This document shows, in pieces, positions 3,130 to 11,607 of a DNA stretch of 64,000 nt. This DNA comes from Umbelopsis ramanniana AG (lineage: Eukaryota; Mucoromycota; Umbelopsidomycetes; Umbelopsidales; Umbelopsidaceae). The DNA is taken from the NCBI RefSeq assembly GCF_025399195.1, contig NW_026252090.1, forward strand, positions 310,001 through 374,000, written 5' to 3'. The notes under the pieces were generated by a model, which made no database searches, was not told the DNA's origin, and was given only the letters and a program-made list of their open reading frames with translations. Every line of letters starts with the position of its first letter. Position 1 is the stretch's first letter. The position numbers and the translations under genes were made by a program.

Positions 3130-3202
3130 TGGAGTAGGCGCGATTCGAACGCGCGGCTTCCCGCATGCAAAGCGGACACGCTAACCACTGCGTCACAACC
3201 CC
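3130..3202 (-). tRNA. tRNA-Ala (anticodon UGC)
   Basis: The minus strand folds into a complete 73-nt cloverleaf. The acceptor stem starts GGGG and ends with CTCC plus discriminator A. The D stem is ACGC/GCGT, the anticodon stem TCCGC/GCGGG with loop TTTGCAT (anticodon TGC), and the T stem GCGCG/CGCGC with loop TTCGAAT. The G3:U70 wobble pair, the main identity element for alanyl-tRNA synthetase, is present. One U-U mismatch lies at pair 6:67 of the acceptor stem. There is no intron. A T9 terminator follows. Confidence 0.95.
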
Positions 3203-4215: not shown

Positions 4216-4545
4216 TCAACAGAATAAATTCATTAACAGGCATTTGATGGCTGAAGTGAGCTGATTCACTTGATCTCGAGTGTTCTTGAAGACAGGAAAC
4301 CACACTTGTCTTTTAAATTCGAGAAAGAAACATAGGTGATCATACCACTCGTCAACTTTGAGGTTGAGTTTTTCTCTCAATGCGTATGTCTGAAGTAATT
4401 GAGCCTCGAATGCTGCGAAGGAGAGTATGGTGCAGTCGTGACATGAGGACATTGACAAGCCGACAGTATCAAGCCGACAGTACTGTTTATTGATCACAAA
4501 TTTACGGAAGATGGAATGATAATTTGCGTTAGATAGAATGATCAT
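4216..4545 (-). CDS. Hypothetical ORF immediately 3' of the Fanzor gene
   Basis: An uninterrupted 109-codon frame on the same strand as the Fanzor gene, starting about 108 nt after its stop codon. The middle part has protein-like composition with aromatic and charged residues (DEWYDHLCFFLEF) and alternating helix-like stretches. I recognise no family. The first codons run into the decayed minisatellite at 4515-4608, so the true start is uncertain. It could be a fragment of another element protein, a second exon of something lost, or chance. Confidence 0.25.
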   Translation of the reverse strand: MIILSNANYHSIFRKFVINKQYCRLDTVGLSMSSCHDCTILSFAAFEAQLLQTYALREKLNLKVDEWYDHLCFFLEFKRQVWFPVFKNTRDQVNQLTSAIKCLLMNLFC

Positions 4546-4608
4546 TTTGCGTTAGATATTGCGTTAGATACTTTGCGTTAGATACTTTAGATACTTTAGA
4601 TACTTTTT
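4515..4608. repeat. Decayed minisatellite of TTGCGTTAGATA / CTTTAGATA units
   Basis: About four copies of TTGCGTTAGATA and three of CTTTAGATA, separated by short spacers, are arranged head to tail on the plus strand. They lie between the hypothetical ORF and the Fanzor stop codon. Such arrays often mark transposon ends or slippage next to them. Confidence 0.7.
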
Positions 4609-4627
4609 ACTTGCCTCTTTCGAGTAT

Positions 4628-4642
4628 CGTTCGTTACGAACG
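4628..4642. other. Short perfect hairpin 10 nt after the Fanzor stop codon
   Basis: CGTTCG (4628-4633) and CGAACG (4637-4642) are a perfect inverted repeat around a 3-nt loop. It lies just 3' of the Fanzor coding region, where guide-RNA (omegaRNA-like) scaffolds of TnpB/Fanzor systems are usually encoded. Whether it is transcribed with the nuclease is unknown. Confidence 0.45.
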
Positions 4643-4652
4643 CATGGGGCTT

Positions 4653-7457
4653 TCAAAGCACCCTGTGCCTATCTGGCAAGTTCCACGCTGGACGAGCACC
4701 AGTTGTTGCGTAGTGATGAACGATGCGGCGCATGTTAAATGCAGCCATCACATCTTTATGCCATAACGGTAGATGATCGAAAATTCGACGTTGGCAGATA
4801 TTGGCAAGATACTGGGTCCACAGAAGCTCATCGTTGCGAAGGGAACTGTTTGCGTATTGCTCAGCGCAGTGGGGGCACACCCGGTGGCGAATAACGCGGA
4901 GATTCAACTCTTCTCGCAAATCTGGACATTCTCGGAAAGGGTGTAGATATTCAAAGTTACCATCCTCTCTATGGCAGCAGTCCATACAAAGTATAATTAG
5001 AACGAAATTCGAATCATAATTGGATTAAAACTCTAATCTTTTACCTTTGGCAACACCATTTTGAGCGTTTTGTCCAATGCTTCCCATCCAACCTATTTGT
5101 ATACTTCTTGCGCTTGAAGTGATCACAAACGATAGCATGCCTTGAGACATGGTGTTCAACGGTGCGATTGTCGCAGGGGCAGGTTATACTAGTTCTAAAT
5201 TCTGGCACCTTGATAACATGACAAAATCGAGCCACGTACTTAGACAAGCCTTTGTTTGGCATGGGAGGGGATCCTTTCCTGTTGCCGAAGTTGCCGCTGC
5301 CCCATGCAACGACCTTTGGTACATCTTGTTCTTGATAGATTGGTCTTTCAATTGCTGGACCAGTTGCTGCCACAGGTTTTATTGATGGAAGTCTTGAGTT
5401 TGAGCTAAGAATTGCGTTTTTCATGCCAGCCATAGCGCTCTCAATCCTTATCTCTCTACTACGCCGCCATCTGCGATAGAATGGCAGTTGTGACCATGAA
5501 TGAAGTATTTCGAAATTAGCATAGTACTGGTGAACATAGATGACCCATTCATCATAATTGTCGCGACGTAAAGTTGACAACTGAACCAGCGGTTCAAGAA
5601 CTTGAGAGCGCTCTCGGACGCCTTGTTCTTTCCTTTCGAAAGCAGATGTCAGTCTGGCGTTCTTCCAATAGCCTAAAGTATGAAGTGTACGCATTATTAA
5701 AATGCTCATCACGAATAATATAACTTATATTCCTACAACTCCCAAATACCTGAAGTCAACTGGACATTGTCTGTTGGATTGTCAGATCGTACCGCTGTTA
5801 CAAGGGATTTCATTCCTGGATCCACACCGATAAGGTTGGCGGTAGCCAGGATAACAGAAAGGCTTTCTGGGGTTACCATTTCCAGCGGAAAATTTCCTTT
5901 GGTGGTGCTGGAAATGTCCTTTTTTTCATTCTTACGCCGCTTCTTCCTTTGCTTCCTTTTGCGTTTTCGAGGAACGGCACTTGATGTTCCTTCTCCAGCA
6001 CTGCTCTCATCATCATCGTCAGGTTCAGCTGGTGGGCTACGGCCCCCGCCAATGGTCACACAACAGCCATAGCCATCAGTGGCAATGCTAACATGTTCTG
6101 TCATGTTGCTACAGAAAGAATATTTCGTAAGACTTTGCACCAATATATATTATAATAAAATATTATACTGCATACCTGATGCCAATCTTGTCAAAGTGGA
6201 ATACTTCTTCCCATATGCCTTGTTGTTCTGAGGGTATGTTGCCTTTGGTATCTACTCCGAACACTGTAGCTACTTGCGGTCGACAAAGGTGCTTGAGAAT
6301 GACTTCATCCAGCTTGAAGTATTTGGTTACCATCTTGTATTCGGGAAATAATTGGAAACGCCGGCAATTCAATAGTGCTCGCTCAATTCGTAAAAATTTC
6401 ATGTAATTTATGATGGCAGCAATAGACTTTTTTTCCTTCAGCAGTCGCCTATTCAGTCGATGTTTTCTCCTGTCTCGTGTAGAAGTGACAAGAAGGAGGA
6501 ACCCCAACGATCGTCTATGTGACGTGATGATACCCGACAATGCATCGTTTTCTATATGCTGCCTGGCTAACCTCTCTCCAGCTGTTGCCACCCGCTGCTC
6601 CGCTTCAGTGATGACATCGTCTTCATCAGAGTCACTTTCATCAGATTCATTGTCATCCAAGCGTGTATTTTCTTCTTCTTCTTCTTCTTGCCCCCGAGTT
6701 TCAATATCTGTGCCATCAGCCTCAGACGTAGTGGGGACTGCCTGAACAGGTATTGAGATGGCTTCGTCCCACAACTGATCGGTAATGACTCCTGAGTGAG
6801 CGTTGGCGTATGATTGATATCGGTCCAGATCTGTAACAAACACTAACTGATTGATACGTTGAGATATGAAAAATGAAATCTTTTTGATCACATTCCGCTT
6901 TTCAGAGTCTGATAGCTCCTCGGTAATGTGCTGGTCCACTTGAGCTTTAATGGTTGCATACTGATACTTGTGAAAATGAGTATATATTTGAGCCTTCTGG
7001 TTGGCGATCATTTGCCTGGCATTGAATCCTCTCATTTGAGATGGGCAGATTGTAGAAGTAGGTTTTCCAATGCCATCCGGGTTTTCTGAACTAGCGAACG
7101 ATGGAGCAAATACTGTTTCGAATACTCTCTTCAATGCCAATTTCTCTCGAGTCAAAGCACTTTGATATGGTCGAAATCCAGTCAAGAATAGACCTTGCGC
7201 ATATTCGTAGAAACTTTGCAAGTTGTCCTCAGGCAAGTGAGCATCATCTTGGTTCAGATATGTGTTGATAAGAAGAGAAGCTTGACGACGCAAGAACGAT
7301 GCTACAACAGCAGTTTCTTGGAAGACCTTTTGAAGATGTTGATACTCGGGTTTCAAGATACTTAGAACACCAGTGCGAATGGTTTTTCGCTTTGGCCTTT
7401 ACGTATGGTTAGCTTAGTAATCTTATGGCCGGAACTATTGTAGTTCTTTACTCACAT
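4653..7457 (-). CDS. Fanzor (eukaryotic TnpB-like RNA-guided DNA endonuclease)
   Basis: Five exons join in frame: 7457-7456, 7396-6176, 6108-5750, 5672-5045, 4968-4653; about 841 aa. Introns are 59, 67, 77 and 76 nt, all GT-AG. The first intron splits the ATG itself (AT|G), so the protein begins MPKRK, a likely nuclear signal. Residues 1-420 form the N-terminal recognition/wedge part, with an acidic low-complexity stretch (poly-Glu, then DESDSDEDD) and ending in TDGYGCCV. A linker follows with a DDDDE run and a strongly basic cluster near 454-471. The RuvC core shows IGVDPG (Asp about 504), KVPEFRTS (Glu about 685, the rearranged position known in Fanzors) and HKDVMAAFNM (Asp about 809). Cys motifs (CPC, VCPHC) make an expanded zinc-ribbon region. 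Family members cut DNA guided by an RNA encoded near the gene's 3' end and travel with transposons. No stop or frameshift interrupts the model, so it looks intact. Confidence 0.9.
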
Positions 7458-8009
7458 GCTATGGTGCTTGTTCGTTTTCTCTTTTGAAGGTTTTGGTAGG
7501 TGTCAAAGATGAAGCAAGGAGAGAAAAGCAAAGAGGCGCAAGAGAAAGTTTTTTTTTCAAATCTTATACTACGTTTTTCAATTGACAACAAGACAACAAA
7601 AATGGAGGTAAAAGTGCCACATCAACATATCAGTCGACAGCAAACGTGAAGCCTAAACTACTTGTAATCGCGTCCTGTGGTAATATGAGATAACCACAGT
7701 CTTAATCCACAACTGAAACATAAAAGATTAAGAGGCCACATGTATGCTATATGTATTAATGAAAACACGCATGAATGAACAGTAGAGTTCAACTATGTCT
7801 ATAAATGAAAAGTGTAAAACCGCTGAAATAAATCATCAATTAAATGCATTCTATTTAGTAGGTCGACTAATTGAACAATACAGCTTCAATCGTCTTTGGC
7901 TGGACCCCTTTACTGTCGTAGAGTGCCTCTTATATTTTGTTGTCAACAATGGAAACTGGAAATATAATGATGATAGGATGACGAGGTCTCGTCTCTTCCA
8001 ATTCACACC
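7458..8009. other. Spacer between Fanzor gene and transposase relic
   Basis: AT-rich DNA holding the 5' leader and presumed promoter of the Fanzor gene. No coding exon is supported, and no inverted-repeat partner of the transposase's far end was found, so no transposon end could be placed here. Confidence 0.45.
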
Positions 8010-9371
8010 TCAGAAGGTATGGTCCGGCATGGATAATTCATACTTGGCTGTCTGTTTGAGTTGCATTTCGGACAGCTTCGCATATGCGGTCAGTCAGTCA
8101 GTCGATCTTCAGCAGTCAAGGCATTTCGTCTGACACCAGCCTTTACTTTTCACAAAATTCTTCTGTGGGGTTCAAGAAGGGCGAATACGGTGGAAGATAT
8201 AAGCACTTGTAGCCTCGACCTTCCACTAACTCGCGTACCTTGCCTGGAGTATGTATAGGCGCATTGTCCATCACTAGATACTGTCCCTTCATACCGTTTC
8301 TATCAAGTACATCCATCACGTTAGATATATATGCAAGAAAATTCTCGGTTCTAGTTCCAATCCGCCGACCACTAATCACTCTCGCAGTTGAATAATTTAC
8401 TTTTCTCTTCTTCGAAGCTGACACGGCTTGTGGTTTCTTTAGAGATATATCTATCACACCAGCTTGCGATATCGCTCCCAAGATCGTTATTGTCACACCT
8501 TTGGCTGTTGGCGCTATCCCCTTGGCAGGTGTTCCTCTTCGAGAACGACCATAATTTCGTTGAGTATAGAGATTGAATCCAGACTCCTCGATGAACACGC
8601 AGTTCTTGGCAAAATTCAGCTCTGAAATGGCCTCCCACTCCTCAATTCTTTCCTTTCGTAACTTGAGCACACGCTCGCTATTTCTTGCAGCAGGTATTTT
8701 TTCCAGTTTTTTGAGAGTCAACTTACATTTTTCAACCAAGTGTCTATGCAACGCGGATATTGATATAGATACTTCTGGAAACGCCGCACAGAGTGCTCTT
8801 CTAATATCCAACAATATAGCTGTCGGGTGCTCATCGGCATAACATATAAGAAATTGCGAATGGTCGTCTGTCAACTTAGGCTAACGACCAGCTCCTGGCT
8901 TTGTACCGCTTATCGGTAAACGTCGTTCGTCATCGTCATTGTATGTTCTGATGTAGTGTTGCGCTGTCCTAACGTTAATTCCAGTCAAGAGCGCAGCTTC
9001 CTTGGCAGTCTTACCCTGTTCAATCACGTAACTAAATAATTGTTCAATCTGATGTCCAGTGTATCGTCTATATGGCCCTCTTATCTTTCGTGATTGGTGC
9101 CTTTCTGTTGAGCTTTCGACGATTGCTATGGGTGAAGCCGTTTCTGTGGATAGCGTGTGGTCTGGTCCCACCATATCAATATCCATCAAAGTTCCAACGG
9201 TACCAGAACGTCATCGTCATTTCCGCCTTCCTCCTCGATATCCATCGGTTGACTTGGTTTTTCCATCATAGTCTCCTCATTTTGCATGTAGGACCCTGTA
9301 GGGGTAGAGTTATCCGCTTCACACAAGATCATGTTTTCGCCTTCAATAAATGTGATATTACTGTTTTCCAT
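8010..9371 (-). pseudogene. Broken Tc1/mariner (IS630-type DDE) transposase
   Basis: The frame runs from an acidic N-terminus (from 9371) into an HTH domain (EQGKTAKEAALLTGINVRTAQHY split as a typical helix-turn-helix). The DDE_3-type catalytic domain follows, with second-Asp motif (LVMDNAPIH) and third-acid motif (YSPFLNPTEEF). There are three lesions: a frame change near 9186-9189, an in-frame amber TAG at 8881-8883 in the linker after GR and before PKLTDD, and a frameshift near 8145 just after the last catalytic Glu. Past that point the family's C-terminal tail is readable in another frame to a stop at 8010-8012. The first catalytic acid is Glu instead of Asp (FIEESGF, about 8580-8600). 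The copy should be inactive. It lies about 550 bp upstream of the Fanzor gene in the same orientation. Confidence 0.88.
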
Positions 9372-9499
9372 GTCATATGCTCACTATGCAAGGGCTTATA
9401 GTCCGTATATTCAATTTTCTATGAAAACCTGAATTTGCGTTTAAGGCTACTAGGCGAAATATAGTTATAGTTTGCGTATACAAATCAGAGGATCTGCGC

Positions 9500-9548
9500 C
9501 AATTATTTTGAGAAAGACAGTATTTCGGCCCTGGCTGCCTTTAGAACC
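9500..9548 (-). repeat. Candidate right terminal repeat of the mobile island (weak)
   Basis: Read on the minus strand, CAGGGCC (9533-9527) is followed 19 nt later by AATAATTG (9507-9500), and AAGG precedes it. This mirrors the words at 2889-2935. A CAG start is usual for Tc1/mariner-type ends, but no TA target duplication is directly adjacent. Confidence 0.2.
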
Positions 9549-9745
9549 ACGTCAAACATGTGACTAGCGTATAATCAGTGAGTGGAAATTTTTCAACAAA
9601 AAAAAATATACGTCCTGCAACGGCCATTCAACATTCATAAAAGACAGGGGAACTTGTATGAATCAAGCCTAGACAACCACATCATTACGCTCCGTACAAT
9701 ACTTCTTTTCATAATTGCTATAGAGACCCACTAGTACAATACACA

Positions 9746-11607
9746 ATGTCGACTCTTCAGACACGGACGATAACGGCTGCTGTCATGGAGTGGATTAGTC
9801 GACCGCTGGCACGACCACCAATTCTGCCAATTAATGCAAGGACTTGCCAAGCAACAAATAGATATATGAGCACTTCAACTCTACCATTCTTAAACCCTAC
9901 GATACCCTCAACGTGTCAAACTTATATTGCTACGAATGCGACCAAAATACTTCAGCCAGGTAACTATCACTTAGGATATTAAATATGGTCGCTGTCTACC
10001 AAATCGTAGTGGTAACTAACATACGGATCCACGTTATAGTTGTATCGACAAGAAGCAAAATTTATTGTAAATATTCGAGTGCTCGAAGAAAAGAGATCGA
10101 TCGGCGAAATTGGCAGCAATACACGATACGAAAACACTTGGAATCTGGTGCAGAAGGACTTGCACTTCAAGTCTATTCTTCCATGGGACTGCTAGCTCAA
10201 GACGAAAAGGGCAAGGAAAAGTTCTTCCGACTTCTTCATGTGTCAGAAGTATATCGACTACTTGAAGTATTACGTCAACAAAGTGCGAGGACGCTTGTCC
10301 ATGATACTCTGCAACATCGGTATCATACTCAGCGACTTGAACTGTTACTGGGACATCTATGGTTTCGTTTGGAAGGATTAGACAGGCGAACGGCAGATTG
10401 TGCTTTGGAGATTTATGGTCGAGCAGGCGCTATTGAAGCAGCAGAATGGATTTTTCAAAGATTTTTGGAGTGCGGAGCAGAGCCACGGACAGACACATAC
10501 AACAAGCTCATGACCGTTTACCTCAGCCATATAAAGCAGCATGGACATGAAGAAGATGAGAAGCGAAAGGAATACATGGAACGATTGGAAGGCATATGGG
10601 AGAAAGTCAGGTTAGGGCCTGATGGACCGGATGCATACTCGTATAATATCCTACTCAGCGCCAAAGTCAAAATTGGAGACATTGAAGGAGCCGAAAGGGT
10701 TTTTGAAGAGATGATGGTTCAACCCGATAGAGTCAGCTATCACATTCTTCTGGATGGTTATCTCAAAGCACTTGAGCACAGTCAGCAGCAGCAAGCAGAA
10801 TTATGGCTTGGGAAGATGATGAAGCATGGCATTCAGCCGGACACTAAGACATTTAATACCCTCATGGCAGGTTTGGTCAGGCAAATGAGAAGGTCTCACT
10901 CTCGACAAGATGACGATAACGCAGGAACGTTAAAGGCAACTGCTAGCACGATATTCAAACTATCCGAAGCCATGGACAAACTTGGAGTTGAAAAGGACAC
11001 CCATTCCATAGGAATCTTGATCCATTGTTACTTTTTGTGTGGTGAAATCGAGCAGATCGACAAGCTTTCCCGGGAACTCGGCATTATGAAGAATGGCGGC
11101 TATGATACCACCATCATCAAATCCAAGTTGGTCGCTGGCAAGCACATTTACAATAGTTTGATCAACATATACCTCACTATTGGACAGGACGACAAAGCGA
11201 TGGAGATATACCATGATATGACATGCAAAGGCAAGCATGCGGATGTCATAACATATGGAACCTTCATTCGCCATAGTCTCAAGAGAGGCAATCTTCAAGG
11301 AGCGATGAGCTATTACCAGATGATGGAGCGAGCTGGTATACCTGGCAATTCTCGAATTCGGAACATGATTTTATCAGCGACAACCAAGGAAGAAGAATAT
11401 AACAGAGCAAAGCCGCAAGAGTCAGCGAGCGCGCAATCTTCAGCGAATGCGGAATTGTCAGCCAACCCCGAAATGTCAGCGAGAACGCACTTGTTAGCGG
11501 AATCGCAAGCCTTCAGTGAAGTCTCCGACAATACAACAAATCAGACAACTGACAGGGCGGCTGAACAGACAGCAGAAGTAGCAAAAATGAATTCTGCACA
11601 CAAATGA
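9746..11607 (+). CDS. Pentatricopeptide repeat (PPR) protein, probably mitochondrial
   Basis: Two exons (9746-9959 and 10040-11607; 80-nt GT-AG intron with an AACTAAC-like branch site) give about 593 aa. The N-terminus is rich in Arg, Ser and Thr and nearly free of acids, as in a mitochondrial targeting peptide. At least five degenerate PPR helix pairs follow, for example TYNKLMTVYLSH, SYNILLSAKVK, SYHILLDGYLKA, TFNTLMAGLVRQ, IYNSLINIYLTIG and TYGTFIRHSLKRG. They are spaced about 35 residues apart where clear. The last 60 residues are a low-complexity Ser/Ala/Glu-rich tail with repeated SA(N/Q) units. PPR proteins bind single-stranded organellar RNA and act in processing, stability or translation. 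The exact target and a yeast orthologue are not evident. Confidence 0.88.

Follow-up and report, generated by a model that had tools for sequence, protein, structure and literature searches.

A coding-intact Fanzor1 gene with a candidate guide RNA in a Tc1/mariner element of Umbelopsis ramanniana

The window (the whole 64,000-nucleotide stretch of Umbelopsis ramanniana DNA analysed here) contains a Tc1/mariner-type element of 5,038 bp at 4483–9520 on the minus strand, which carries a Fanzor gene and a broken transposase. Its limits were obtained by blastn against paralogous copies, and its ends were read directly. TA target-site duplications flank the element at 4481–4482 on the right-end side and, also read directly, at 9521–9522 on the left-end side, and the element has short, imperfect terminal inverted repeats. 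The DDE_3 match of the transposase (E 1.7e-20) and the TA duplication assign the element to the Tc1/mariner (IS630) group, which makes the carrier of this Fanzor1 gene a eukaryotic DNA transposon. The left end lies at 9129–9520; in DNA searches, a query covering 9300–9535 was found at seven places in the genome and a right-end query at five, the window being included in both counts. Two of the other copies, C27a and C27b, have TA on both sides as the window copy does, including the TA outside the same right end.

At its outer left end, the window copy was 98% identical to C27a. By eye, its inner left end groups with two further copies, C68 and C53, and this mosaic is probably the result of exchange between element copies. 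C68, C26, and C53 possess the left end and the start of the transposase and were not among the matches of the right-end search; the match of C53 and C26 to the window ends at 8675, after which these two resemble each other for about 20 aligned bases, as if they were one deletion derivative. The left flanks end in AATA (window and C79), ACTA (C27a and C27b), TATA (C68), and CATA (C53); as a basis for proposing a TAM, six sequences are too few to count. Outside the element, a tRNA-Ala gene (TGC) lies at 3130–3202, about 1.3 kb away. An MFS-type membrane transporter with several exons (590–2657) and a protein with PPR-like repeats (9747–11607) were recognised by eye, and the likely ATG of the latter is about 230 bp from the left end of the element.

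The transposase remnant, of the DDE (Tc1/IS630-like) type, occupies 7993–9359 on the minus strand and was aligned to protein P0003 over 9245–7993 and to P0006 up to 9359. Two stops and three frameshifts were counted against P0003; an earlier note on this DNA had given three lesions, and at least that many are right. The remnant also reads VFIEESGF where P0003 and P0006 read VFIDEAGF, a D-to-E change at what we take to be the first catalytic aspartate of the transposase. Neither the stop at 8881 nor the frameshift near 9190 occurs in C79, C53, or C26, the three copies aligned at that point, and both are therefore private to the window copy. The nuclease does adjoin a broken transposase, as the note had stated, both lying inside 4483–9520.

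The Fanzor frame runs from 7457 to 4653 on the minus strand in five exons that encode 841 amino acids without a stop or a frameshift, at the coordinates proposed earlier. Exon 1 (7456–7457) supplies the AT of a split start codon. Exon 2 (6176–7396) encodes the N-terminal region, which is homologous to C27a and to the Umbelopsis proteins P0001 and P0002 and, by analogy, may be the REC region of Fanzor. Exon 3 (5750–6108) contains TDG (residues 418–420), a basic stretch (454–471) that could be a nuclear signal, and the RuvC-I aspartate D504 (VDPG). Exon 4 (5045–5672) contains the RuvC core with E685 (EFRTS) and the first Zn-ribbon cysteines, and exon 5 (4653–4968) contains the second CxxC (768–771), the RuvC-III aspartate D809 (HKDVMAAFN), and the stop codon (4655–4653). 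All three acidic RuvC positions that had been claimed were therefore found. The gene is also intron-bearing as described, with four predicted GT..AG introns on the same minus strand: intron 1 (7397–7455, 59 nt), which splits the start codon, intron 2 (6109–6175, 67 nt), intron 3 (5673–5749, 77 nt), and intron 4 (4969–5044, 76 nt). Introns were reportedly noted in Fanzors in a 2023 survey. The longest open frame in the element (411 codons) is a Fanzor exon, and the maximum in 300 first-order Markov shuffles was 203 codons.

The exon joins were compared with those of relatives. The join of exons 3 and 4 is identical in the predicted U. isabellina protein P0001, and the predicted U. nana protein P0002 joins the two otherwise, without the E685 stretch; both are gene predictions and not transcripts. 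The metagenome open reading frames P0126 and P0138 start or end at the read-through exon edges of the window, including that at intron 3. At the site of intron 4, C27a has no intron and its frame is continuous across. For the most part, these relatives appear to back the proposed joins. At the start position, the window has AGG where an uninterrupted ATG stands in the sister copies C27a and C27b, so that the ATG of the window gene arises solely by the AT^G splice of predicted intron 1. Its donor, GTGAGT, directly follows the AT, its branch site is CTAAC, and its acceptor is AG. The arrangement AT|GTRAGT, CTRAC, and AG occurred at 7 of 7,506 AGs tested across the two strands, intron 1 itself presumably being among the seven. 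We take intron 1 to be real, yet it is the weakest joint of the gene model.

The family of the encoded protein was determined by profile searches. When used alone, the window protein gave no significant Fanzor match in Pfam or PDB searches and matched two Umbelopsis proteins in 5.8 billion, among the best 7,992 candidates scored. A weak GIY-YIG match (E 0.026) missed the cut-off and was discarded. Profile A1 (C-terminal half) matched 35 proteins in the same 5.8 billion, and the nine of them that carry an organism label are all from Umbelopsis. A1 alone had no significant Fanzor match in PDB; it reached P0155 at E 4.9e-5 (5.8 billion proteins) and aligned with it at an hhalign probability of 97.4%, with VDPG and E[FY]RTS aligned. 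P0155 is clearly a Fanzor1: it contains a TNB domain (E 1.4e-9), matches SpuFz1 of Spizellomyces punctatus at 4.5e-12, and also matches PpFz1 of Parasitella parasitica. Profile A3 (eight rows, one of which is P0155) matched PpFz1 at E 5.3e-10 and SpuFz1 at 2.8e-7 in PDB with the three motifs in register, each match being a sum of weak stretches (for PpFz1 none was below E 0.05 alone, and for SpuFz1 only RuvC-I was significant). On this profile evidence the window protein is a Fanzor1, because the family profiles reach P0155 and, via P0155, the solved Parasitella and Spizellomyces Fanzors; the identity given in the earlier note holds, through a link that single-sequence searches do not find. 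No relatives were detected in viral contigs scanned with P0155, A1, and the right-end tail of the element.

In SpuFz1, D383, E541, and D606 bind Mg (PMC10432273), and since the motifs are in register, D504, E685, and D809 correspond to these residues. Fanzor1 proteins are distinguished by DPG at RuvC-I, an alternative glutamate position, and TDG in the WED domain (PMC10711439). The window protein has VDPG at 503–506; its E685 aligns with the glutamate of the E[FY]RTS motif that P0155 and PpFz1 share and with that of EYKTS in SpuFz1; and its TDG (418–420) aligns with that of all three proteins. The published Fanzor1 motif, D-X(125,275)-[TS][TS]-XX-[C4 zinc finger]-X(5,50)-RD (PMC3627910), is represented by D504, 183 residues, T688 S689, I T, C692-P-C694...C768-PH-C771, 36 residues, and K808 D809. 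The departures are K for R and a CxC/CxxC finger with about 70 residues in between. An AlphaFold2 model of the relative P0123 (17 rows; mean pLDDT 47, pTM 0.32) did not make the active site readable.

The region between E685 and D809 spans 124 residues in the window protein and contains extra cysteines. Among 11 proteins examined, this spacing was 122–147 residues in the seven Umbelopsis-type members that span both positions (the window protein, C27a, P0124, P0125, P0128, P0130, and P0131). It was 76 in P0123, the model of which seems to be without a piece, and 37 in P0155; P0126 and P0127 end too early. The extra cysteines C710, C734, C735, and C751 are common to most members covering them. 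The RD of the motif reads KD (K808 D809 in the window), and in P0130 V replaces the aspartate (KV). The enlargement of the TNB region looks like a feature specific to the Umbelopsis lineage. Two relatives, P0128 and P0133, possess a Pro/Gln-rich insertion between the RuvC acids.

Parasitella parasitica and Umbelopsis both belong to the Mucoromycota. PpFz1 (PDB 9CF0-9CF3) is a Fanzor1 like the window protein, and TDG, DPG, DEFRTS, and W-x-(R/K)-D align in register between the two. PpFz1 possesses a RuvC insertion of about 100 amino acids (FRI), which binds cyclophilin (PMC11423790), whereas the window protein shows the 124-residue E-to-D region with extra cysteines, and KD for RD. The distance from D504 to E685 is 181 residues against 158 in SpuFz1, and no FRI-like insertion is therefore evident in the window. 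SpuFz1 (PDB 8GKH) shares with the window the order of the triad, an element with ends, and a right-end RNA (a candidate one here), and its TAM, CATA, ends in TA (PMC10432273) as does the target site of the window element. The SpuFz1 locus is about 2.1 kb with one open reading frame (PMC10432273); in contrast, the window gene has predicted introns, a Tc1/mariner transposase alongside, and a longer TNB region (E-to-D 124 against 65). Fanzor1 in Mariner elements was already described in 2013 for PGv-1, PUl-1, and PUl-4 (Bao and Jurka, PMC3627910), which likewise combine Fanzor1 with a Mariner-like transposase and TA duplications. Their hosts are an algal virus, Pythium, and a Hydra contig (PMC3627910), whereas the present host is Umbelopsis, which is absent from the portion of Table 1 of that paper that was examined. 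Some members of the Mariner-Fanzor1 families contain Fanzor only, with the same ends, and the chimeras share one end region and not the cargo (PMC3627910); in the window family, both ends are common and the Fanzor differs. Among the papers searched, none named Fanzor together with Umbelopsis. The window gene adds to the known Fanzor1 family as an ordinary member, by its motifs and profile matches, and is not a new kind.

At least seven loci of the genome bear a Fanzor (the window locus on C4, together with C79, C27a, C27b, C5, C40, and C95), a lower bound since the search scored the best candidates only, and the window locus alone reads as unbroken. C27a is free of stops and has a single frameshift, perhaps an intron that was missed; C27b has five frameshifts; C5 has 11 frameshifts and two stops; C40 is a fragment with a stop; and C95 is truncated on blastn evidence only. 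C79 has one internal stop in 582 aligned codons with 60 gapped positions, and its first ~175 residues are missing. Protein P0153 of U. ramanniana AG matches C5 in sequence, and P0135 of that strain shares residues found in C79 alone. C5 and C40, both heavily broken, belong to a more diverged Fanzor subfamily (~36% identity). As the sole unbroken one of the loci found, the window locus appears to deserve its earlier description as the best candidate for an active system. C27a and C27b carry both ends of the window element around a different Fanzor (48% amino acid identity to the window in C27a). These two copies agree at 97% over 3.2 kb and are flanked by different sequences, which indicates that Fanzor-bearing units have moved.

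The right end contains a candidate omega (guide-scaffold) RNA at 4483–4663 on the minus strand, composed, in alignment A6, of a conserved block 1, a variable part, and a conserved tail to the element end. The tail (4483–4574) is near-identical across the window, C27a, and C27b, although the Fanzor subfamilies share 48% amino acid identity; in C79 and C95, the outermost ~20 nt of the right end are missing or altered. Block 1 (4609–4663) forms three hairpins in the predicted fold of the window, and the stop codon lies within hairpin 1; overlap of the RNA with the gene has been described for other Fanzors (PMC10432273). Its fold gave a z score of -2.4 in the window (4 of 200 shuffles as good) and -0.9 in C27a. 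For the tail with adjoining sequence (4482–4605), folding did not surpass that of shuffles (z +1.3), there was no fold signal from the whole 190-nt right end (z +0.35), and an Rfam scan of 4300–9700 found nothing above the family threshold. Hairpin 2 (4642–4628) contains two compensated pairs between subfamilies, hairpin 3 has a GAAA loop and stays paired where one C-G pair has become U-G, and pairing in hairpin 1 reaches just 86%. As a control, sliding the partners lowered pairing from 93.5% to 50% or less, a comparison biased in favour of a structure drawn from one row. The covariation score was reached by 14 of 500 shuffles, and as many compensated pairs occurred in 356 of 500. The covariation is supportive and not conclusive, because the alignment has four distinct rows from two lineages only. 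RNAalifold closes the variable part with a six-pair stem, GATACT/AGTATC, in all five rows, which proves nothing because the stem is invariant. Short tandem repeats (TTAGATACT and GCGTTAGATA) occur at 4509–4606 inside the right end, with a 9-nt run that is longest in the window copy and AGTATC units that give the predicted RNA stem several registers. By comparison with known Fanzor loci, the presumptive native guide is the 20 nt just beyond the right-end TA (4461–4480, minus strand; PMC10432273, PMC10711439); at other Fanzor1 loci, the RNA extends ~15 nt past the duplication (PMC10711439).

We consider it probable that the locus is a coding-intact Fanzor1 cargo of an Umbelopsis Tc1/mariner element, which, with a guide RNA from the right end, would cut the empty site and so offset loss of the element. 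The spliced mRNA would be translated into the 841-residue RuvC nuclease, and the same strand, expressed between the stop codon and the right end, would provide the scaffold RNA, its 3' end in the flanking DNA serving as the guide. The nuclease would recognise and cleave a matching empty site beside a TAM that has the target TA as its last two bases, and repair from an occupied copy would restore or spread the element by homing, offsetting cut-and-paste loss. The transposase would be provided in trans, or was until recently, because that of the window copy is dead.

The intact frame could also belong to a young copy that is already non-functional, the frame having survived for want of time and the ATG-to-AGG change having removed the start. 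We regard this as somewhat unlikely, although measurements of age and constraint agree with it. Omega for the Fanzor between the window and C79 was 0.54 (bootstrap 0.31–0.93; 581 codons), and the uncorrected ratio for the broken transposase was 0.47 against C79 (150 codons), 0.34 against C53 (165 codons), and 0.66 against C26 (168 codons). The dN/dS check suggested in the earlier note thus yielded no clear excess of constraint over the broken transposase. Of 43 amino acid changes in the Fanzor, 5 were assigned to the window branch and 26 to the C79 branch, with 12 unpolarised; of 31 changes in the left end, the numbers were 3, 14, and 14. Those in the transposase, given as window against C79, were 3 and 10 for amino acids, 5 and 2 for silent changes, and 10 and 15 for all nucleotides. 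By Fisher's test, none of the three splits compared differed significantly from that of the Fanzor (transposase amino acids p 0.68, nucleotides p 0.07, left end p 1.0), and constraint on the window branch was not significantly stronger in the Fanzor than in the transposase (5 of 582 against 3 of 153 codons, p 0.37). The AGG where the sister copies read ATG also agrees with a dead young copy, as does the state of the other six Fanzor loci, which are broken, truncated, or fragmentary (C27a through a single frameshift). Against it, full splice signals would rebuild the ATG in frame, and the transposase has five lesions while the Fanzor has none in twice the sequence (p ~0.004 if all five are private, 0.036 with three lesions, and 0.032 with the two proved private), a contrast that takes the Fanzor intron choices as given and is suggestive only as a sign of constraint. 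Most of the intactness of the Fanzor is attributable to the short window branch. Of the alternatives that the note had offered, recent insertion is favoured by this short branch and selection is not favoured by an omega like that of the broken transposase; a young copy accounts for the data, and selection acting on the frame, though possible, is unproved.

An intact frame beside a dead transposase would also be expected of a Fanzor domesticated by the host for a cellular task apart from the transposon. This is very improbable: the gene is still enclosed by complete element ends that have TA duplications, the right end is conserved, its identity to the U. isabellina protein is 62% over 512 aligned residues, and the C-terminal U. 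isabellina model P0150 looks damaged by eye. As for the right end, the conserved block may be a transposase-binding end only, with the Fanzor RNA elsewhere or lost. Motifs that resemble subterminal binding sites are present at both ends (TAACGCAA repeats at the right, ACGCAAA at the left), and the tail shows no fold beyond chance. Transposase binding could explain the conservation in part. As an explanation of the whole block it seems unlikely, since block 1 sits over 120 nt inward of the end and overlaps the window stop codon, as is known for Fanzor RNAs (PMC10432273), and its hairpins 2 and 3 show the compensated pairs and the GAAA loop.

Beyond the reading of the locus as a guided Fanzor1 cargo, a wider scheme is conceivable but doubtful, in which the Umbelopsis Tc1/mariner family swaps Fanzor-plus-guide-RNA cassettes, has gained the TNB cysteine cluster, and is kept spreading by the nuclease. 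If this were true, the ends would have stayed near-constant while the nucleases diverged to 48% identity, the second TNB cysteine cluster would alter DNA handling or partner binding, and the nuclease, not the dead transposase, would sustain the spread of the elements.

Fanzors are recently recognised eukaryotic RNA-guided nucleases, and their natural role is unsettled. The locus in U. ramanniana, a harmless soil saprotroph, offers a coding-intact, intron-bearing Fanzor, broken sisters in one genome, defined ends, a predicted native guide, and a candidate scaffold RNA, and the idea that the nuclease offsets transposon loss therefore becomes testable in this fungus. The Umbelopsis proteins widen the sequence diversity of Fanzors with an enlarged TNB region and KD for RD.
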